A DNA stretch of 64,000 bases from Candidatus Tiamatella incendiivivens (GTDB taxonomy: Archaea; Thermoproteota; Thermoprotei_A; Sulfolobales; Acidilobaceae). Shown piece after piece: positions 2,096-56,718 of the stretch (within the stretch, counting starts at the first letter, position 1; each line of letters begins with the position of its first letter). The notes beneath the pieces were generated by a model. The model saw only the letters and a list, made by a program, of their open reading frames with translations. It did no database searches and was not told the origin of the DNA. The stretch covers positions 186,001 through 250,000 of the forward strand of contig WALW01000019.1 in assembly GCA_015522635.1 (NCBI GenBank), given 5' to 3'. Both the position numbers and the translations under genes were made by a program.

Positions 2096-3700
2096 ATGCA
2101 TGGAAAAATCGTTGTGGTTACTGGTAAGCTTGCTATGGAGGAAGCAGAGAGACAGGTTGAATTACTAAATAAAGCTGGTTACAATGTGAAGTTAAAGGTA
2201 TTCAATATTGACGTTGCAGTATTTATCAATGAAAAAAACCTGGCTAGCTGGATTAACAAGTTCTGCAGCGACTTGAAGGGCTCGGTAATAGTGATCCCAG
2301 GCGGATCTCACGTTAGATCAGATATCTTTTACACCCTACTCAGATGCAAGGACGTAAGAGTAGTTAAAGGCCCTATACATATCTCTGATTTGTATCATTA
2401 CAGCACTGCAATACCCCTAGGTGATTGGATGCTAGATCATCCGGTTGACCGTCTTCACGAGTGTGAGAAAAGATCCTCTACCATGGGTGCTTACAGGAAA
2501 ATGCTTTCAGAAAGCAAAGGGTTAAGGAGTGTTCATTCCAATATTGTCATACCAATAAAACCTCCTCCATTCATACCCATAGGAGAGTTGTACATTGATA
2601 GTTATTTTGGAAAGTACTTTGAAGACAAACTAGGCTGGCTTATTAACTCCGAGTTTCCAATTATAGTTGTAGGTTCACTTAGAAATGATTCAAGTGCCGT
2701 TGAAAAGGCAGTTAGAACTGTTGAAAAAGAAGGATTTAATGGAATATTAGGGATAGATTTGCCCCCATCCTGTAAGAGCATTAGATTAATAACAAATACT
2801 TCAGCCGAGCTGTTCCTTTCATTAAACTCTCATGCCTTTGGGAAGCTGGAAGAATGCATTAAAGCTGTTAGGAATAGTATTATGCCTGTTATAATTCCTA
2901 GCAACATCCGTGGAAGTAGAAGATCTAAACTATATTCCCTAGGACGTGGAGTGAAAAAAGCAGGCAACATAGGGTTAAGTAGAATAATATTAGACCCCAT
3001 TATTTCCCCACCCTATTCAAACGCGAATACCAGTGTTTTAGATGCCTTACTAGTCTCTAGAACAGTAAATGAAAAATACGGGAAACCCGTTCTCCTAGGC
3101 TTATCTAATTATATAGAGCTTGTTGACTCTGATTCACCAGGCCTTGTTTTTAGTTTAGTTCAACTCGCCGTTGAAGCAAAAGCTTCTCTAGGCCTCTTCT
3201 CGGAGGAAAGCTATAAAACCCAGGGCGTTCTGCAAGAGGCGTTTCTCGCCGCTGCAATGAACTCTTATTCAGCTATGCATAAGATTCCGCCTAAAGATAT
3301 TGGTGTGAATTTACTAGTTCTGAAAAGTAAAAAGAGAATTGAAAATAATATAACGGGTAGAGTGAAAGTCTTGGAAAGAGAAGGTGGGGAACAGCCTATA
3401 GGAGAATGGGATCCCACAGGGTATGTGAACATCATAGTCGATTACAAACGACGGCTCATCCTTACAAAAAAGAAAAAATGGAAGCACTGGATAGGAAGCA
3501 CTGAGTGGAGACCTATAATCGATTATTTAATTGAAAACAACGAGATCTCGAGGATAGGGCACGCCTTTTATTTAGGCCGAGAACTATACAAGGCTACACT
3601 TGCATTAAAACTTAACAAAAACTACATCCAAGATGAGAGACTGTTCACAAAGAACTATCTAAAAGGACTAGAAAAAGAAGAAAAAGACTTTGAAATTTAA
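2096..3700 (+). CDS. Dihydropteroate synthase-related protein (archaeal two-domain type)
   Basis: The 534 residues match my knowledge of the archaeal dihydropteroate-synthase-related family (MJ0107-like). The N-terminal domain (about 1-130) carries the family motif GGSHVRSDIFY. It is followed by a TIM-barrel region with pterin-binding-like strands (about 185-400) and a basic C-terminal extension. A role in pterin or one-carbon cofactor synthesis is often assumed but not proven for this family. The ATG is the first in frame after the preceding stop. It meets the S-layer gene tail to tail, sharing the stop tetranucleotide TTAA. Confidence 0.75.
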   Translation: MHGKIVVVTGKLAMEEAERQVELLNKAGYNVKLKVFNIDVAVFINEKNLASWINKFCSDLKGSVIVIPGGSHVRSDIFYTLLRCKDVRVVKGPIHISDLYHYSTAIPLGDWMLDHPVDRLHECEKRSSTMGAYRKMLSESKGLRSVHSNIVIPIKPPPFIPIGELYIDSYFGKYFEDKLGWLINSEFPIIVVGSLRNDSSAVEKAVRTVEKEGFNGILGIDLPPSCKSIRLITNTSAELFLSLNSHAFGKLEECIKAVRNSIMPVIIPSNIRGSRRSKLYSLGRGVKKAGNIGLSRIILDPIISPPYSNANTSVLDALLVSRTVNEKYGKPVLLGLSNYIELVDSDSPGLVFSLVQLAVEAKASLGLFSEESYKTQGVLQEAFLAAAMNSYSAMHKIPPKDIGVNLLVLKSKKRIENNITGRVKVLEREGGEQPIGEWDPTGYVNIIVDYKRRLILTKKKKWKHWIGSTEWRPIIDYLIENNEISRIGHAFYLGRELYKATLALKLNKNYIQDERLFTKNYLKGLEKEEKDFEI

Positions 3701-6700
3701 GGCCTCATCTTAGCGACTAGGTATAATGCTACTATTAATGTTATTATTATCAATATCATATTGATCAGACCATAGGTCTTTATTCCACTACCGGTCTTGC
3801 TACCTACAACACCCACTTTATTGGATACATCCTGTATCTCCTTAGATAAGTTATCACCAACAGTTGTTACCTTCTGAGCCGTATCGCTTGCACTCTTCTG
3901 TGCTCCGCTTGCCGCTGTAGCAGCATTCTGCGCTGCACTAGCTGCCTGCTGAGCCGCACTAGCGGCATTGCTAGCAGCTGTCTTAGCATCGCTCGCTGCA
4001 CTAGCTGCCTGCTGAGCAGCTGTCTTAGCATCGCTCGCTGCACTAGCTGCCTGCTGAGCAGCTGTCTTAGCATCGCTCGCTGCACTAGCTGCCTGCTGAG
4101 CAACTGTAGTAGCATTCTGCGCTGCACTAGCTGCATTGTCTGCAGATGTCTTTGCTTCACCTGCCAGTGTAGCTACATTATTAATCATATTGCTGAGTGC
4201 TGAGTCAACGCTGACAACTGCATGATCTGTTGCTACACTATTGAAGTAGCCTCCAAATATGCTGGCTCCAGCTAGAGCGTCAACTACTAGTACATCATTA
4301 GCGGGATGGTGGTCGATTATATAGGATATTACTATTTCGCTAGTGGTCGGGTTCACATAAACTACTGGCCCAGCTGATAGATCAGTTATGTTTATTACCT
4401 TAACATCTCCGGGTCCATATATGAACCATAGTGTTAGATATTGGAACTGAGCAACACTCGCTGGCTGTGATAGCATAGGCACTTCTTCAGTCTTATACTC
4501 TAATAACAGCTTCACTGAAACATATATAGTGTCTCCAACAAAAGCATTAGGATCAGCTTTCACTGATATCTTGAACAGAGGCTTCTCACTTACTATCAAG
4601 CTGAAGGTTTGTGAACACGGTGATGAATATAGTTCTAACTGGAATACACCACCATCCCTTCCAGTTAACTGTAATAGATATGACGTGCTAATAGTCGTAT
4701 TGAACGTACCATAGTCATCTGTAGTAGTAGATGCCAAGGAAGGACTTAGAGCAGGTACTAAACTATCTATCTCTACCGGTGAATTAGCGTCAAACCCGTA
4801 TCCTATAAATGTTACATTTGCACCCGGTCTAGCTGTAACTGTTCCCGTTAACATCTGGTATGCACTGCTTCCTGACACTTTGTATCCTATTATACATGAT
4901 ATGTTGAGCGCGTAGCTTGAGTATTGATCATAATAGTAACTAGTGCTATTTGATTCATTAACGTATGCATAATAGTAGTCACTAGGGAGTGTTGGTACTT
5001 TTATAGCTAACTCTTTGTACCCTTGTACCAGATCTGTTGCGTTGAATGATGTAACCTTATAAAACATTCCGTCCTCTAAGTTTACATCAACCGTACCATT
5101 ATCATACATGGGGAACCCTACGATCTCTACGTATGCCATTACATCACTCTTCTCTACGCCCTGTATGTACTCATAAGCCTCGTATGGATATACTGTCAAA
5201 TCGTTTAGATAGGAGAATATTTCGAGGCTCGTTGTATTACCGAAGAACCTGGCTACATTGTCACCGTATGGCCATAGGAAGACTTTATCATTGCCTACAC
5301 CGTATGCCACTGAATCTGCAGTAACGTTGCTAAAGCCTACATTATCTCCGGAGCCCTTAAGGCCGAATACGAATCCGCTTGCTAGTTTTGTCATGTTGAT
5401 ATCAGCTGGTAGCTTGACTACTAATGCTATCTCACCAGTTGTATCGTTCTTTACTTTGTATGCGTCAATCATGCCGTCTCCATTTGTATCAAGTCCCTGT
5501 ACGTTGGTTAGAGTTATGAGAGCGTGTAAAGCGTTTGTTATGTTGCTCGTGTCATATGATACGAAGGGTGTTAGGTCTTCTGTTGTTATGAATCCGTATC
5601 CCTTGATTAGTATATAGTCTCCTGGTGCTAATTGCTGGCCATCAACCGTGTTCCCCATGAAGTAGCCATCGTTGTCCAGGTATTCCGCTGTTACGTATGG
5701 ATATATCTTCATTCCCTGTGCGTCATCTACCCATGTCCTATATAATGTTCCTGTCACATTTACTCTGAGAATCGGGTAGAACATATTGCCTCCATATGGA
5801 TGGTTAGCAACATATACCGTTGCAGTTAAAGTACCATCGCTGCCGACTTGTGATTCTGTTCCCGGTGTGTAGACTTCTGTACTAAATATTGTGAAGTTTT
5901 CTCCGTTCCATCCTGCTAGACATACTGTTGAGAAGTTAGCCGGATACGGTAAGTTGTGACCTGTTATTACGAAGAAGTCTCCGGGATTCATTTGGTTGCC
6001 AAGTATGGTGTCTGTACCTTCTACTATATGTGTCTCGTTATATTCTAGTGTAACTGATGGATATACTTTTAGAGGTGGTGCTTCATTCCAGTTTACTAGG
6101 TATACTACATAGGCTTGGTCAGACGTTTGGTTGAATACATAGTCAACTGAATAGCTTGCTGGGGTAGCAGCTGGATTCTCGAATTCGTCTGCTGTTGAAT
6201 TATATGTGTAGTATGTTAACGTGCCAGTTATACCGTTTGATAGTTCACCCATTGCAAATACTGTGTTTGTATTGACTAGAGTGAGATTTAGGTAGCTTGT
6301 GGTTGTTAAATTCACTATTACAATATCGTTTGTTGAGTTAAATGAATTGTTGTAGTGTTCATCTTCTATTGGTGATATTTGGACTGTGTACAGGAGTTCC
6401 TGGAATTCACTATATGGGAATTCTACTCCTCCCTTAGTTTCGGTACCCGTTGCGTTCACAGGAAAGTCTTGTAATGTTTGTAGTGAGAACTTGACTTGTG
6501 ATGTGCTTGTATTTACATATGTTGCATTGGTGTTGTAAAACATATCTGATTCATTATTGATGACACCTGATGGTGTTATTGTTATGTTAAATAGGTAGCG
6601 TGGGATGTTGTTTGGATTGTAAGCTTCTACTTGGTACTTTATCCAGCTAGCATCACCGGCAGTTAGGTTCAGGGGAGTGCCATCAGCGTGGAATAGCTGT

Positions 6701-7329
6701 ATTGAGCCTGTTGTTTCATTTGTTGTTGCTGGTCCACCGTACCATGTTGCATTGAAGCCGGTGTATGAGAATTTTGTGTCTGATATCTGGTACTTACCGA
6801 CTATAGTTTTGTTTGATAATGAGAAGTGGCCGTCCATAACTGCTACTGTGTTCTGATCGATTTGTATTTTAAGGTATACTGCTGAGGCGCTAGCATAGTT
6901 AACTCCAGTCATTTCTGAGACTTTGGCCCACCAGGAGTTGTCGGCTGGCAGTGGTAGAGAAACGATTAAGAGGTTTTCGCCGACTCCGCTAGTATCTAGT
7001 TTTAAATGCTCTGCATATGGTACCGTTAGATTAACACCATTTTCCGCATAATACTGGCTGTCATATATTAGTGGGACACTTGTACTACCTATTGAAGCGA
7101 ATGCATTTGTATCCATGAATAAGTTTACTGCAACTGCTTGTGGATAGCTTTGCCTTAGTTTCTGAACATCTATTACGAAGAATAATTTACCGCCTACACT
7201 TGTTTTCTGCGTCAGCACTATTGCTTGTGAGCTCACTTGGGTCGCGGCTTCTGTATGGTATGCTCCTGCAGCCATACTTAAAGCTATAAGTAGCACGGCC
7301 GCGAGCATTAAGTGTTTTCTCCATTGCAT
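3697..7329 (-). CDS. S-layer-type surface glycoprotein with Ala-rich coiled-coil stalk and C-terminal membrane anchor
   Basis: This 1210-residue protein has an N-terminal signal peptide (about residues 8-29, Ala/Leu-rich) and a long beta-rich ectodomain with many Asn-X-Ser/Thr sequons. The ectodomain contains at least four recurring Ig-like starts of the form P-G-D/N-x-(hydrophobic)-x-G-x-G-F. Residues about 1040-1165 form an Ala/Gln/Ser/Asp heptad coiled coil that includes three identical 14-residue repeats. A C-terminal hydrophobic segment (about 1185-1205) ends in KMRP. The architecture combines an S-layer canopy with a SlaB/tetrabrachion-like stalk in one polypeptide. The ATG is preceded by an AAAGGTGAG ribosome-binding site, and a TATA-like element lies about 65 nt upstream. 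That this is the main S-layer subunit is inference from size, sequons and anchor. Confidence 0.82.
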   Translation of the reverse strand: MQWRKHLMLAAVLLIALSMAAGAYHTEAATQVSSQAIVLTQKTSVGGKLFFVIDVQKLRQSYPQAVAVNLFMDTNAFASIGSTSVPLIYDSQYYAENGVNLTVPYAEHLKLDTSGVGENLLIVSLPLPADNSWWAKVSEMTGVNYASASAVYLKIQIDQNTVAVMDGHFSLSNKTIVGKYQISDTKFSYTGFNATWYGGPATTNETTGSIQLFHADGTPLNLTAGDASWIKYQVEAYNPNNIPRYLFNITITPSGVINNESDMFYNTNATYVNTSTSQVKFSLQTLQDFPVNATGTETKGGVEFPYSEFQELLYTVQISPIEDEHYNNSFNSTNDIVIVNLTTTSYLNLTLVNTNTVFAMGELSNGITGTLTYYTYNSTADEFENPAATPASYSVDYVFNQTSDQAYVVYLVNWNEAPPLKVYPSVTLEYNETHIVEGTDTILGNQMNPGDFFVITGHNLPYPANFSTVCLAGWNGENFTIFSTEVYTPGTESQVGSDGTLTATVYVANHPYGGNMFYPILRVNVTGTLYRTWVDDAQGMKIYPYVTAEYLDNDGYFMGNTVDGQQLAPGDYILIKGYGFITTEDLTPFVSYDTSNITNALHALITLTNVQGLDTNGDGMIDAYKVKNDTTGEIALVVKLPADINMTKLASGFVFGLKGSGDNVGFSNVTADSVAYGVGNDKVFLWPYGDNVARFFGNTTSLEIFSYLNDLTVYPYEAYEYIQGVEKSDVMAYVEIVGFPMYDNGTVDVNLEDGMFYKVTSFNATDLVQGYKELAIKVPTLPSDYYYAYVNESNSTSYYYDQYSSYALNISCIIGYKVSGSSAYQMLTGTVTARPGANVTFIGYGFDANSPVEIDSLVPALSPSLASTTTDDYGTFNTTISTSYLLQLTGRDGGVFQLELYSSPCSQTFSLIVSEKPLFKISVKADPNAFVGDTIYVSVKLLLEYKTEEVPMLSQPASVAQFQYLTLWFIYGPGDVKVINITDLSAGPVVYVNPTTSEIVISYIIDHHPANDVLVVDALAGASIFGGYFNSVATDHAVVSVDSALSNMINNVATLAGEAKTSADNAASAAQNATTVAQQAASAASDAKTAAQQAASAASDAKTAAQQAASAASDAKTAASNAASAAQQAASAAQNAATAASGAQKSASDTAQKVTTVGDNLSKEIQDVSNKVGVVGSKTGSGIKTYGLINMILIIITLIVALYLVAKMRP
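3973..4098 (-). repeat. Three perfect 42-bp tandem repeats inside the coiled-coil stalk
   Basis: Units at 3973-4014, 4015-4056 and 4057-4098 are identical at the DNA level. Each encodes 14 residues (two heptads) rich in Ala, Gln, Ser, Asp and Lys. Diverged copies flank them on both sides. Perfect DNA identity suggests recent slippage or recombinational amplification, which would lengthen the stalk two heptads at a time. Confidence 0.92.
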
Positions 7330-8892: not shown

Positions 8893-9005
8893 ATTATATA
8901 CAGCCAGTTGATAGATGCATTCCTCGTTTCATCATATTGTTATTAAACATCCATACAATCGTAGATGCCTTGGTGCTATTGGTGGGGAGAGGAAACTATT
9001 GGCCG

Positions 9006-11003
9006 GTGAAGAATAGAGTCTACTGGTGCCCTCACAGCAATGTACCTCTGATTGACGACCGCTGTAGAAATGGGAGCCGAGGCCCGCAACTTAAACTAAC
9101 TGACCCGGGTGACGTTAGACCCGGATTTGAACATGATATAGGAAGAGTCAAAAAAGCATACAAGAATGAGTTTGACACACTGAAAGGTGTAGACAGACTC
9201 CTCGGTTATGGCGTCGTCCTCCTCAACAAGGTTCCATTTATGGATGAAATGAAGGAAGTGATCTCTCAGGGAGCGGTGATTGCTAGGGTATATTATGAGC
9301 CGTTCAAAGGTGAATGGAGGCTAAGGCTTAGTAGGCCTGGAATACTTAGGATAATGGATGCAGGTGTATTTAGTGTGTTTAAACTAGAGGGTGGCTTGAG
9401 AATATTAAAATGGAGGAGGAGGCTGAGAGTTGACGGGGAAAACTATAGGGAAGGCGAGCAGATAGTTTTGGTGGATAGCCGCGGAGAACCTGTAGGTATA
9501 GGTTATTATAGTAAGGGGCAAATTGCTGTTCATAATGTTTTCTATACTTTCCACCCGCCAAAATTCGCGGAAGACCGGGATTCCACTTGGCAAGACGCTG
9601 TTAGGGAGAACGAGGGATATCTAGCTGTTTTGGAGGAGAGGTCTATAAAATTCATTAGAAGCTTATATGAGAAGCGTGGAGGCCCAGTAATAGTCTCCTT
9701 CTCCAGTGGTAAAGATAGCTTAGTTGCATTGCATCTAACGCTAAAAGCTGGCTTAGAGCCTGTTATCTTATTTAACAATACCGGAATTGAACTGCCTGAA
9801 ACTATCGAACATGTCTACAAAATCGCTGATAAATGGGGGTTAAAGGTTATTGAATCCTCGGCAGGCAATGCTTTCTGGAAATCCGTCGAGAGAATAGGGC
9901 CGCCTGGCAAAGATTACCGGTGGTGCTGTAAAATTACCAAACTGGCACCGCTAGCCCAAACGGTCAACAAGCACTTCCCTGATGGAGCACTGAACATTGT
10001 AGGACAAAGAGCTTACGAGAGCCTTGACAGGGCTAAAAGCGGGAGGGTATGGAGAAATAAATGGCTACCTAAACTATTGAACATAAGCCCCATACAATAC
10101 TGGGGTCAACTAGCAATATACCTCTATATCTTCAAGTATAACCTACCCCTTAACCCGTTATACTTCAGGGGGTTTGATAGACTCGGGTGTTTTATGTGCC
10201 CTGCTGCTACAGTTGCTGAATACCAGCAAGTAAATGAGATCCACCCAGAACTATGGGAAAAGTGGATCTCAACCCTATACAAATGGGCAGAAAGAATAGG
10301 GCTCAACGGGAGAGATGCTGAATTATGGGTGGAAAAAGGAATATGGAGGTGGTTAACACCTGCCAGTCAAAAGAAGAGGCTAGAGAAGAGGCTGAAGATA
10401 AATATGCCTGACTGGAAGGAGTACTACACCAAATGGTTAGAACCCCTCTCAGCTATAGAAGAGGAGAAAGACGGGGTAGTTATCCGATTTAACGGTGAAA
10501 TAGATCCTCAGTTCTTAAAGGAGCAATACACTGTTATAGGGCCTTTTACAATGGATGACAAGAACAAATATAGCATTAAGAATACTAGTGTGAGCATGAC
10601 TCTGGATCGAAATAATGTATATATATACGGCTTGAAGGGTAGAGCTGGAAAAGAATTCGCTTACGATGTAGTTAAACTCTACTACCGCTGGAAGGATTGC
10701 GGTGAATGTAAGCTATGTGAAACTAGCTGTACTACCGGTGCTATTAAAATAATAGATGGAAGACCGGTAGTCGATGCTTCAACCTGTATACACTGTAAAC
10801 TATGTATAGATAATTGCCCCATCTCTGATGTTACGGTTGAGAAAGTCATTATACCATTGAATGAGGGTGAGATCACTGCTTGGAGACGTAAGTGGAAACG
10901 TAGTAGGGAAAGCATAATCAAACGATATTATAAATTGAAGAAGGAAGCAAAAGGACCGGACACCGAGGAGGATGAGGCAGAAGGATTCTTCCTTGGAGGC
11001 TAG
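9006..11003 (+). CDS. PAPS-reductase-like PP-loop protein with N-terminal PUA-like region and C-terminal 4Fe-4S ferredoxin domain
   Basis: About 665 residues in the order: short Cys-containing N-terminus, PUA-like region (an EGEQIVLVDSRGEPVG stretch), PAPS-reductase/PP-loop domain with SSGKDS, a WCCKITK cysteine motif, and a C-terminal ferredoxin domain with two CxxCxxCxxxC clusters (around bases 10695-10730 and 10783-10820). Related archaeal fusions are annotated as phosphoadenosine phosphosulfate reductases. A PUA domain suggests an RNA substrate, so sulfur transfer to RNA is an alternative to sulfate reduction. The GTG at 9006 was preferred because family members start just before the (R/K)VxWC motif, but starts at 8937 or 8982 are possible. 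The usual N-terminal zinc ribbon has lost about half its cysteines. It shares a CTAG stop tetranucleotide with the convergent helicase. Confidence 0.82.
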   Translation: MKNRVYWCPHSNVPLIDDRCRNGSRGPQLKLTDPGDVRPGFEHDIGRVKKAYKNEFDTLKGVDRLLGYGVVLLNKVPFMDEMKEVISQGAVIARVYYEPFKGEWRLRLSRPGILRIMDAGVFSVFKLEGGLRILKWRRRLRVDGENYREGEQIVLVDSRGEPVGIGYYSKGQIAVHNVFYTFHPPKFAEDRDSTWQDAVRENEGYLAVLEERSIKFIRSLYEKRGGPVIVSFSSGKDSLVALHLTLKAGLEPVILFNNTGIELPETIEHVYKIADKWGLKVIESSAGNAFWKSVERIGPPGKDYRWCCKITKLAPLAQTVNKHFPDGALNIVGQRAYESLDRAKSGRVWRNKWLPKLLNISPIQYWGQLAIYLYIFKYNLPLNPLYFRGFDRLGCFMCPAATVAEYQQVNEIHPELWEKWISTLYKWAERIGLNGRDAELWVEKGIWRWLTPASQKKRLEKRLKINMPDWKEYYTKWLEPLSAIEEEKDGVVIRFNGEIDPQFLKEQYTVIGPFTMDDKNKYSIKNTSVSMTLDRNNVYIYGLKGRAGKEFAYDVVKLYYRWKDCGECKLCETSCTTGAIKIIDGRPVVDASTCIHCKLCIDNCPISDVTVEKVIIPLNEGEITAWRRKWKRSRESIIKRYYKLKKEAKGPDTEEDEAEGFFLGG

Positions 11004-51150: not shown

Positions 51151-52311
51151 TCAAGGAATCCTGTAAACATCTATTTTGGGGGGCCATATACTCTCTAGTA
51201 TCATTGTGATCTTCAAAAATTCCTCGTTAAAAATAGGTGGCTCGGGGCGAGGTGAAGCACGTGCACCTTTATAGGAACAGAACTCTGTTTGTCTAGATGC
51301 TATGTCATAAAAACCTAGTTTCATCGTTTCCTTTACAATATCGTCTTTATCGAATCCCACAACCGGTCTCAGAATAGGAACCTGTAGGTGTGAAGATGTA
51401 ACATACATACTTTCCACGGTTTGGCTTGAGACCTGCCCTAATGACTCTCCTGTTACTAATGCTAAGTAATGCTTAGATAGTGCCAGCTTAGCTGCGTGCT
51501 GGAACATTAAACGACGTAATACAAGGATTCTATAGTTCTTTCTAATCATTCGGGATATGACTTCTGCAGTCTCATGAAAATGAACTCTGTATATTTTCAT
51601 AGGGTGCTGATCCATAATATGATCCGAATATAGTGCTGTAGCTAATTCAAGGGCAACCTTCCAATTATCTTCTGTAGCAAAGTCATAATATATTAGATCC
51701 GTGGGTGAACCCCTCTTCATCACCATCCAAGCCGATAAAGCAGAGTCAAAACCGCCACTGAATAATGTGAGAACCTTAGACTCGCTTCCTAAGGGCAAAC
51801 CACCCGGGCCATCTACAATCTTATCATATAGATAAGAAGTATTATCCCTAATTTCTATGTGAATAGCGTATTCAGGGTTCGTAAGATTCACCTTTCTGGG
51901 ATTACAGTTATCATACAAAAAACCGCCTATTTCTCTTTCCGCATCCTTACTCGTAAACGGATGCTTTCCCGTTCTCCTAACCCTAACCATAAACTCTTTC
52001 CCTCTGATTTTATTGCAAAATAATTCAAGGGCTACTTCACTTATTCTACGTAGATCAGCTGTATCCGTAAAACACGCTGGAGAAAAGCTCTTGACACCGA
52101 AAACATTGGAAAGGATTTTATCTATTAAGAGATCATACTGGTCGACTTCCACTATTATTCTTGCATGTTCATGGTAAACCCTATTAACATTGACTCTATT
52201 GAAGCCTAAGGCTTTACGTATGTTTAAGATCATCCTTGAAATCATTTTCGACCTAGTATAACTACCCTTGACAGCTGGTTCCGAATACCTAATTAAGTAA
52301 ACTTTTTTCAA
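51151..52311 (-). CDS. thiI: ThiI-type tRNA 4-thiouridine synthase
   Basis: The 386-residue protein has an N-terminal ferredoxin-like/THUMP region (about 1-165) and a PP-loop domain with SGGFDS (about 185-190) and the TGESLGQVSSQT helix. It adenylates U8 of tRNA before sulfur insertion. No rhodanese domain is present, so sulfur must come from another carrier, as in many archaea. Cysteines near the C-terminus (EFCSYKG) may take part. The TTG start is at 52311. Confidence 0.9.
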   Translation of the reverse strand: MKKVYLIRYSEPAVKGSYTRSKMISRMILNIRKALGFNRVNVNRVYHEHARIIVEVDQYDLLIDKILSNVFGVKSFSPACFTDTADLRRISEVALELFCNKIRGKEFMVRVRRTGKHPFTSKDAEREIGGFLYDNCNPRKVNLTNPEYAIHIEIRDNTSYLYDKIVDGPGGLPLGSESKVLTLFSGGFDSALSAWMVMKRGSPTDLIYYDFATEDNWKVALELATALYSDHIMDQHPMKIYRVHFHETAEVISRMIRKNYRILVLRRLMFQHAAKLALSKHYLALVTGESLGQVSSQTVESMYVTSSHLQVPILRPVVGFDKDDIVKETMKLGFYDIASRQTEFCSYKGARASPRPEPPIFNEEFLKITMILESIWPPKIDVYRIP

Positions 52312-55258: not shown

Positions 55259-56125
55259 ATGACGCCAGGAAGAAGGCTAATAGAAGAGGTAATTGACGAG
55301 TTAGGGGTTGACAGGGAGGTTATCTGGCCACGCCTAGAAATAGTTGGCGATATCGCTGTTTTACGTAAACCAATAACAATAGAGTTGAACCCAAAAATAA
55401 CTGAGACTTACAAGAAAATAGCTCGCCGTATACAAGATCGAATACCAAGTATTAACAGTATATGGCTAGCATGTACTCCTGTGTCAGAAGTAAGTAAAAC
55501 ACGCAAGTATATTTTGTTGGCTGGAGCCAATAAAAGCGAAACCGTGCATAGAGAGTTTGGGTGTAAATTCAAACTAGATCTAAGGAAAGTGTATTTTTCT
55601 CCGAGACTCAACTTCGAACACGGCTGGTTTGCTAATTTTGTAGAAAAAGACGATTACATACTAAATATGTTCGCTGGAATAGGGTTCTTCTCTATAATAC
55701 CAGCTTGCAGGAAAGGGGCACTAAGCGTTGCAATAGACTTGAACCCATATGCCTACAAATATTTACTCGAGAACATTGCACTAAATAATGTAGAAAATAA
55801 AGTATATGCATGGCACGGCGATTCTGGTATTATTACAACGATCTTATCACAATACGAGAAATTCACCCATGTAATAATGCCCTACCCGGAAAAAGCTTTG
55901 TCATATCTGCCGGTAGCCATTAACGCTGTGGAGAAATGCGGCTATCTACATATATACCTTCATACTGATATACCGAGAGAAAACCACCTGCAGATCGTTG
56001 GCAAGCTAGTTTCAGACAAGTTAAATAAATACAGTAAAAGAACCCATGAAGTCATTAGAATACGGCAAGTCAGAACGGTAGGACCAAGATATGGGCAATA
56101 TGTCGTTACGGTGAAACTATGTTGA
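55259..56125 (+). CDS. Trm5/Taw2-like tRNA modification methyltransferase
   Basis: The 288-residue class I SAM enzyme has the Trm5-family motif VYFSPRLNFEHGW, the SAM loop NMFAGIGFFSI and ALSVAIDLNPYAYKYL...NI. The usual Asn-Leu-Pro-Pro motif reads MPYPEKAL. It modifies G37 of tRNA (m1G) or transfers the aminocarboxypropyl group in wyosine synthesis. The overlap with taw3 supports a wyosine role. Confidence 0.8.
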   Translation: MTPGRRLIEEVIDELGVDREVIWPRLEIVGDIAVLRKPITIELNPKITETYKKIARRIQDRIPSINSIWLACTPVSEVSKTRKYILLAGANKSETVHREFGCKFKLDLRKVYFSPRLNFEHGWFANFVEKDDYILNMFAGIGFFSIIPACRKGALSVAIDLNPYAYKYLLENIALNNVENKVYAWHGDSGIITTILSQYEKFTHVIMPYPEKALSYLPVAINAVEKCGYLHIYLHTDIPRENHLQIVGKLVSDKLNKYSKRTHEVIRIRQVRTVGPRYGQYVVTVKLC

Positions 56126-56718
56126 CAGACTCTTGGCATAAAAGGAAAAAACGTTTCTATGAGAGAATGCTTGAAGATAAAGAGATAGGTTATCTAGATC
56201 CAGGAATAGAAAGCCTTCTAGAAGCCTTCTTCGAAAAAGAAGGACTATATACTACTAGTAGCTGTATTGGTAGAATAACTATACTACACGGACTATATCC
56301 CTGGGATAGGGACTCGACGTCTATTATCTTCAAAAAACATGGTAAAATAGGTAAAGAAACTGTTTTGAACTATCTAAGAGGAGCATCCTATGAAAATATA
56401 TGGTTGAGAGTTACAGGGCCAATAATACACGTCATTTGCAAAGACGAGAAATGGGCTCAATGGATCATCGATCTTGCCCGCAAATCCGGGTTCAAACACA
56501 GCTGTATATTCAGTCTAAAGGATGGGATAGTAGTTGAAATAATGAGTTCAATTCAAGTTACAATGCCTTTAAAAATAGAGGGCACCCCTGTAGTATGTGA
56601 AGATAAGTTACCTATTATAGTAGCTTTAGTAAACTCATTATGGGAAAGAGGAGTTACTAGCGCTGAGTCTCTGAGGAAGCTGATTGAGTCTTCCCCTGAA
56701 CCTTCTTCAACTTCTTAA
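56119..56718 (+). CDS. taw3: Taw3 (TYW3-like) wyosine-pathway methyltransferase
   Basis: The 199-residue protein has the TYW3 pattern: a helical start (WHKRKKRFYERMLEDKEIGYLD), YTTSSCIGRITIL, WLRVTGPIIHV and a C-terminal MTIRV-like strand block. TYW3/Taw3 adds a methyl group during wyosine formation at G37 of tRNA-Phe. It overlaps the Trm5/Taw2-like gene by 7 nt and the convergent priL by 62 nt. Confidence 0.85.
   Translation: MLTDSWHKRKKRFYERMLEDKEIGYLDPGIESLLEAFFEKEGLYTTSSCIGRITILHGLYPWDRDSTSIIFKKHGKIGKETVLNYLRGASYENIWLRVTGPIIHVICKDEKWAQWIIDLARKSGFKHSCIFSLKDGIVVEIMSSIQVTMPLKIEGTPVVCEDKLPIIVALVNSLWERGVTSAESLRKLIESSPEPSSTS

Follow-up and report, generated by a model that had tools for sequence, protein, structure and literature searches.

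Assimilatory APS and PAPS reductases carry a C-terminal catalytic cysteine in an ECG(I/L)H motif, and the PAPS-reductase fold also occurs in DndC, a protein that acts on nucleic acid. In the arCOG library, the fusion described here already has an entry as a PAPS-reductase-like protein carrying a PUA and a ferredoxin domain. Among RNA-thiolating PP-loop enzymes, the TtuA group has an N-terminal zinc ribbon; to our knowledge, neither NcsA nor TtuA has a PUA or a ferredoxin domain. In the accessible parts of their paper, Yu et al. count proteins of this kind as putative APS/PAPS reductases in methanogen and ANME sulfur pathways and suggest that the added Fe-S clusters carry electrons (PMC6286981). 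Excerpts of that paper and of Jespersen et al. (PMC10322725) cite work in which relatives from M. jannaschii reportedly reduce APS/PAPS. According to the excerpted text of PMC10067955, NcsA and TtuA hold their [4Fe-4S] cluster through three cysteines, with one iron free. The portion of PMC11237513 that was available holds a CysH-cysteine desulfurase fusion as its sole relevant item, and that of PMC4463584 merely labels TON_0957 a PAPS reductase. Within open-licence PubMed Central, we found no paper that joins PAPS reductase, PUA and tRNA for this family, and none that describes RNA binding or RNA thiolation by a relative.

We analysed a member of this family encoded in a 64,000-nucleotide stretch of the Candidatus Tiamatella incendiivivens genome (hereafter, the window). 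The whole gene spans 9006..11003 on the forward strand, from GTG 9006, the start chosen in an earlier sequence-only reading of the window, to a stop codon at 11001-11003. It lies in a single intact open reading frame (8937-11003, forward strand) of 688 amino acids with TTG 8937 as the longest start and with GTG 8982 and TTG 8979 as further possible starts. Conservation among relatives begins at about residue 24 of the 688-residue frame, in agreement with GTG 9006. Two numberings are therefore in use: positions in the 665-residue protein (from GTG 9006) plus 23 give positions in the 688-residue frame (from TTG 8937). In the 665-residue protein, the zinc ribbon occupies residues 6-31, a pre-PUA domain 34-108, PUA 109-180 and the PP-loop domain 200-412, followed in the C-terminal half by a helical and small beta segment (413-545) and the ferredoxin cysteines (565-604).

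The combination of PUA, PP-loop and double 4Fe-4S domains proposed from the sequence alone was confirmed by Pfam, by family profiles and by an AlphaFold2 model built from an 81-sequence alignment (mean pLDDT 93.9, pTM 0.92). The closest relative is 79% identical, and a quick maximum-likelihood tree places the window protein in a 14-row group of the Acidilobaceae branch (SH-aLRT 100). By sequence, the nearest profiles are PRK13795, PRK08557, PRK08576 and phosphoadenylyl-sulfate reductase. Its alignment to NF010367 runs from residue 24 to residue 630, covers positions 8-582 of the model's 584 (E 3.9e-135) and scores 451.5 bits where the equivalog cut-off is 456, which makes the protein a near homologue of that model. 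The family, known but with no function assigned, is widespread in archaea and usually carries a PAPS-reductase label; the window protein is one of its ordinary members.

The PP-loop domain (9603..10241, forward strand) adopts the PAPS-reductase/FAD-synthase fold according to Pfam, Foldseek and VIA, with PAPS_reduct (PF01507) matched at 251-423 (E 1.4e-41). Its ATP-pyrophosphatase loop (9696..9719, forward strand) reads SFSSGKDS, or SFSGGKDS in the family, and within it S233, G235, K236, D237 and S238 (S-x-G-K-D-S) are invariant in 81/81 sequences. In alignments of the loop, the E. coli PAPS reductase has SSSFGIQA and the ATP-using CysD has YSIGKDS; for M. tuberculosis APS reductase, the aligned region begins only past the ATP loop. 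The ECGxH motif was found in none of the 81 family sequences. Taken together, the invariant ATP loop and the absent ECGxH favour ATP over thiol chemistry as in sulfonucleotide reductases, and we consider it likely, judging from sequence, that the window protein uses ATP.

Two cysteine pairs in the same domain are probable Fe-S ligands: a Cys-Cys pair (9924..9929, forward strand), kept in 81/81 sequences, and a Cys-x2-Cys (10188..10199, forward strand), kept in 80/81, which align with the CC and the CxxC of M. tuberculosis APS reductase, respectively. They correspond to CC307-308 and CxxC395/398 in the 665-residue protein (CC330-331 and CxxC418/421 in the 688-residue frame). On this sequence pattern they probably form a third Fe-S site, inside the PP-loop domain, that the first reading had missed. 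Their conservation speaks for APS reductase and against the three-cysteine clusters of NcsA and TtuA. Outside the ribbon, the CC/CxxC set and the ferredoxin, no other widely conserved cysteine column was present among the 81 sequences; three additional columns hold cysteine in 17, 13 and 8 of them. Foldseek returned APS and PAPS reductases as the best matches of the PP-loop domain. VIA placed the PAPS domain of human FAD synthase highest (Z 21.5, 168 residues), followed by APS/PAPS reductases and CysD (Z ~17-19), TtuA (15.2) and NcsA (13.3).

Upstream of the PP-loop lie a pre-PUA alpha/beta domain (9105..9329, forward strand), seen in the model and carrying the motifs P-G-D-x-R-P and L-N-K-V-P-x2-D-x-M-x-E-V, and a PUA domain (9330..9545, forward strand), assigned from family profiles and structure matches. 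PUA_3 scored under its Pfam cut-off of 22.6 bits on the full-length window protein (E 6.4e-4, 19.9 bits) and above it when the N-terminal piece was scanned by itself (E 3.4e-5, 24.0 bits). Elsewhere in the family, PF01472 (PUA) matches 15 of 81 sequences (best 2.3e-23), and TGT_C2, a domain of tRNA-guanine transglycosylase, matches the pre-PUA region of relatives in 10 of 81. When the N-terminal profile was compared with solved structures, it matched PH0734 (E 3.2e-4) and the Ta protein 1q7h (3.9e-3), and also two SAKe chains (2.1e-3 and 4.9e-3), which are designed proteins and not PUA proteins.

A separate AlphaFold2 model of the N-terminal 186 residues (pLDDT 94.7) gave a PUA fold, so that the PUA-like region suspected from sequence is borne out, in the form of the pre-PUA/PUA pair of translation and tRNA-modification proteins. 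Its VIA matches are led by eIF2D (Z 11.5, 146 residues), MCT-1 (Z 11.3, 147) and PH0734 (Z 10.5, 140), with Nip7 (Z 7.9, 127) and archaeosine TGT (Z 7.8, 131) weaker; the sole Foldseek match under E 0.001 was Nip7 of P. abyssi. ATP sulfurylase 2gks shares the PUA-like fold with this model (Z 5.4, 61 residues), and a PUA-like fold alone is for that reason no proof of RNA binding. The pre-PUA/PUA pair is a stronger sign of RNA binding than a lone PUA-like fold. The N-terminal and PP-loop domains are both basic (pI 9.6 and 9.3). From the modelled fold, the window protein is likely to bind RNA.

At the extreme N terminus, the zinc ribbon is degenerate (YWC-x2-S-N-V-P ... C-x2-G; 9021..9098, forward strand). 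Two of the four ligands are left, encoded at 9027-9029 (C31) and 9063-9065 (C43), with S in place of a partner cysteine at 34 and G at 46 (688-residue numbering), which agrees with the proposal that the ribbon had been partly lost. Comparison of the ribbon cysteines across relatives, which had been suggested with that proposal, showed all four (CCCC) in 35 of 81 sequences. On the quick maximum-likelihood tree, the pattern takes 8 changes, at least 5 of them forced by well-supported branches. Even in sequences without the cysteines, the ribbon always keeps its W and P, and almost always its N.

Between the PP-loop and the ferredoxin, model secondary structure indicates a linker made of a helical segment and then a small beta domain (10242..10640, forward strand), weakly conserved except for a W-R-W motif. 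The ferredoxin domain that follows (10698..10817, forward strand) is of the two-cluster [4Fe-4S] type, with eight cysteines in two CxxCxxCxxxC motifs; Pfam Fer4 matches cover the cysteines at 588-627. All eight are kept in 72/81 sequences and the four of the first cluster in 80/81. Eight Desulfurococcaceae-type homologues keep the first cluster and have lost all four ligands of the second (L046, L034, L033, L037, L141, L138, L042 and L045), and one sequence, L058, has lost both ligand sets.

We surveyed co-occurrence in 250 genomes of the window's phylum, each at least 90% complete. The full-length protein is present in 72, ATP sulfurylase (Sat, PF01747) in 108 and the sulfite-reductase domain PF01077 in 96; sulfate activation was scored by PF01747 alone. 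In tests that count genomes as independent, which their kinship makes them not, the protein showed no association with Sat (28 genomes in common, p 0.40; Sat missing from 44 of 72 holders) and a negative one with PF01077 (15 genomes in common, odds ratio 0.32, p 3e-4; missing from 57 of 72). Neither Sat nor PF01077 is present in 42 of the 72 holders, and the 15 holders with PF01077 belong to families f18 (10), f26 (4) and f15 (1). The window's own genome (completeness 95.8%) has ATP sulfurylase (PF01747) and gave no match to PF01077. A same-genus genome, G002 (98% complete), encodes the protein and gave no PF01747 match. In the 23 genomes behind L060-L082, which are mostly Thermoplasmata and all hold the protein, Sat was found in 2 and was missing from 21. 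The gene is patchy among close relatives. Of 23 genomes from the same genus or family, 12 lacked a match above 200 bits, and 9 of those 12 have a completeness of at least 90%. Its absence from so many close relatives implies that it is not needed for translation there.

The surroundings of the gene were compared across 81 loci (the window and 80 others) with flanks of up to 6 kb, the frame of L017 being left unclustered. No operon was common to all loci examined. The most recurrent neighbours are an uncharacterised membrane protein (28/81) and a putative Lhr-type helicase named from sequence (25/81), followed by HerA-like ATPases, an RNA methyltransferase (PF02598) and a putative ribosomal protein L3-like gene, at 14 each. 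Among 40 more loci, three (L145-L147) have a proteasome subunit before the gene and S26e after it, and two (L150, L180) have the gene between AspRS-like and proteasome genes. Sulfur genes are confined to smaller groups: a TauE cluster in 8/81 loci (one member scanned), its gene adjoining or one gene away in an Acidilobaceae subclade, and a CysE-like cluster in 4/81. Some methanogenic Thermoplasmata show a partial order of the gene, a nucleoside-phosphorylase-like gene, a hexapeptide acetyltransferase (CysE-like, 4 loci) and CysS (5 loci). Most loci showed no sulfate-assimilation operon around the gene; a tally of 145 neighbours by Pfam family covers the first 25 of 130 families and may hide rare sulfur genes. 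The clear sulfate or sulfite neighbours in most relatives that would have spoken against an RNA role thus did not appear. In some clades the neighbourhood tends towards translation, in others towards sulfur.

DUF2286, an uncharacterised archaeal protein, recurs near the gene in 15/121 loci examined (with at least one duplicate, L181 of L011) and is possibly a functional partner. It was seen upstream in L006-L008, L010-L013 and L015, and downstream in L023, L031, L039, L047 and L051. Many of the loci L020-L052 have a multi-spanning and a small membrane protein beside the gene, sometimes with a HerA-like ATPase, an arrangement that we take to resemble the Ced DNA-import set; two of these membrane proteins were scanned and gave no Pfam match. 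A tie to DUF2286 was given less weight, as was a functional tie to the Desulfurococcales neighbours of the membrane-protein, HerA-ATPase and Lhr-type helicase kinds, which in many cases are divergent or convergent and vary by clade.

The window had also been described as rich in tRNA-modification genes. The genes concerned are real: ThiI at 51151-52311 (reverse strand), with THUMP, ThiI and ThiI ferredoxin-like domains, and an overlapping wyosine pair of TRM5/TYW2-type and TYW3 methyltransferase genes at 55259-56125 and 56119-56718 (forward strand), the Trm5/Taw3 pair of that description. They lie some 40 kb or more from the gene and lend little support to its assignment. Elsewhere in the same genome (L002 787-2127, contig C27), a second PAPS-reductase-fold protein of 446 residues scores above the NF006351/PRK08576 cut-off and is directly followed by a putative aminoacyl-tRNA synthetase-like frame of 362 residues. 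Within the window, the reverse-strand gene at 3697-7329 encodes a large secreted-type protein with AAQQAASAASDAKT-like repeat units near its C terminus (~3850-4200); these AAQQAASAASDAKT-like repeats are likely to form a coiled-coil stalk.

One chain thus combines, by sequence or model, a pre-PUA/PUA tandem, an ATP-type PP-loop, a CC...CxxC set and a two-cluster ferredoxin. Our best single guess, to which we give an even chance, is that the protein is an RNA-directed, ATP-dependent, ferredoxin-fed sulfur-insertion enzyme. Following this logic, the PUA tandem would grip a structured RNA, probably tRNA, and the PP-loop domain would adenylate a base carbonyl with ATP. An Fe-S cluster near the active site would present or order the sulfur donor, and the fused ferredoxin would relay electrons from cellular ferredoxin, either bringing sulfur to the sulfide level or keeping the cluster reduced. 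An RNA sulfur-transfer role had already been suggested in the sequence-only reading; its RNA-binding part is well supported, while the resemblance of the PP-loop cysteines is to the four-ligand APS-reductase type and not to NcsA/TtuA.

The main rival, somewhat unlikely in our estimate, is a ferredoxin-driven assimilatory APS/PAPS reductase, in which the PP-loop would bind APS/PAPS, the CC/CxxC cluster would act as in bacterial APS reductases, the fused ferredoxin would replace thioredoxin as donor and the PUA part would be structural or regulatory. The best characterised sequence and Foldseek matches are indeed APS/PAPS reductases, and the CC/CxxC ligands follow the pattern of M. tuberculosis 7LHR, yet the catalytic ECGxH is absent from all 81 sequences while the ATP-type loop is invariant. 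The genomic record divides in a similar manner: the own genome carries ATP sulfurylase, and TauE and CysE-like neighbours occur in some clades, but PF01077 is missing from the own genome and from most holders, the protein shows no association with Sat, and G002 has it with no match to PF01747. In the accessible text of Yu et al., the reductase role is proposed for archaeal homologues by kinship with the M. jannaschii enzymes (PMC6286981). We regard the label 'PAPS reductase' as doubtful for this branch.

The sulfur genes near some loci could instead indicate another sulfur-metabolism enzyme, for example one delivering persulfide or sulfide to cysteine or to Fe-S assembly, with the PUA tandem tethering it either to the ribosome or to the mRNA that encodes it. 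CysE-like and CysS genes in some methanogenic Thermoplasmata and TauE-type genes in an Acidilobaceae subclade fit this proposal, as do MCT-1/eIF2D, the nearest N-terminal structures, which are seen with the 40S subunit (titles of 5oa3 and 5vyc); because these sulfur neighbours are limited to two groups in the loci examined and no operon is universal, we hold it to be unlikely. FMN or other adenylyltransferase activity would account for human FAD synthase being the best VIA match of the PP-loop domain, but that likeness is one of fold only, the nearest sequence profiles being the PRK and phosphoadenylyl-sulfate reductase models named above, and we know of no FAD synthase with a CC/CxxC set, a PUA tandem or a ferredoxin; we give this idea almost no weight. 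Backbone (phosphorothioate) sulfur transfer on nucleic acid in the manner of DndC/SspD is very improbable as well: there is a weak DndC profile match (E 1.4e-5), but its 24.2 bits lie far under the TIGR03183 cut-off of 290.4 and no Dnd partner stood out among the recurrent neighbours listed, even if type-4 BREX, in the excerpt of PMC12839542, also has a PAPS-reductase-like protein with a Cys-rich region.

Returning to RNA sulfur insertion, a candidate product, offered as a guess from phyletic pattern, is the 2-thiocytidine at position 17 (s2C17) of archaeal tRNA. In the part of Wolff et al. that was available (PMC7668247), position 17 of tRNA is given as s2C for M. maripaludis and P. furiosus, is cited as s2C for T. 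kodakarensis, and bears a methyl instead in S. acidocaldarius; that text names no enzyme for s2C17, and TtcA is absent from the main text. Among archaeal control genomes, the family model (E <= 1e-40) matched M. jannaschii and M. acetivorans, with no match in S. acidocaldarius or H. volcanii; the link draws on few species, and those with reported s2C17 differ from the two that the model matched. That the family supplies the missing archaeal thiolase, whether for the s2C17 of the tRNA D-loop or for a different orphan thio-nucleoside, and so represents a new RNA-thiolase class, is a tentative and rather improbable proposal. Such an enzyme would pair an APS-reductase-type four-cysteine cluster with its own ferredoxin reducing the incoming sulfur. 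Were it correct, many archaeal proteins now called 'PAPS reductases' would carry a wrong annotation; more generally, if the protein acts on RNA, reconstructions of methanogen and ANME sulfur pathways lose a step and a redox-linked route of RNA thiolation appears. The family also offers one named gene against which orphan thio-nucleosides of archaea, s2C17 among them, can be tested.

Compared with known systems, the window protein is closest to PRK13795 (NCBIfam NF010366-NF010369, 'hypothetical protein'), whose architecture is the same end to end; it differs in falling just below the cut-off and in having half lost its ribbon. The APS reductases of M. tuberculosis (7LHR) and P. aeruginosa (2GOY) have a similar PP-loop fold, and 7LHR shares the CC and CxxC cluster ligands, whereas the window family (81 relatives) is without ECGxH, keeps GKDS and adds a PUA tandem and a ferredoxin. 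The M. jannaschii APS/PAPS reductases (Lee 2011; Cho 2013), compared through the descriptions in excerpts of PMC6286981 and PMC10322725, are archaeal homologues with added Fe-S domains. NcsA and TtuA (6SCY, 5B4E) are likewise PP-loop ATPases with an Fe-S cluster in the catalytic domain, bound through three cysteines as opposed to the four conserved in the window family. MCT-1/eIF2D, PH0734 and archaeosine TGT have a pre-PUA and PUA two-domain module of their own, like the window protein, which differs in carrying this module at the N terminus of a PP-loop Fe-S enzyme.
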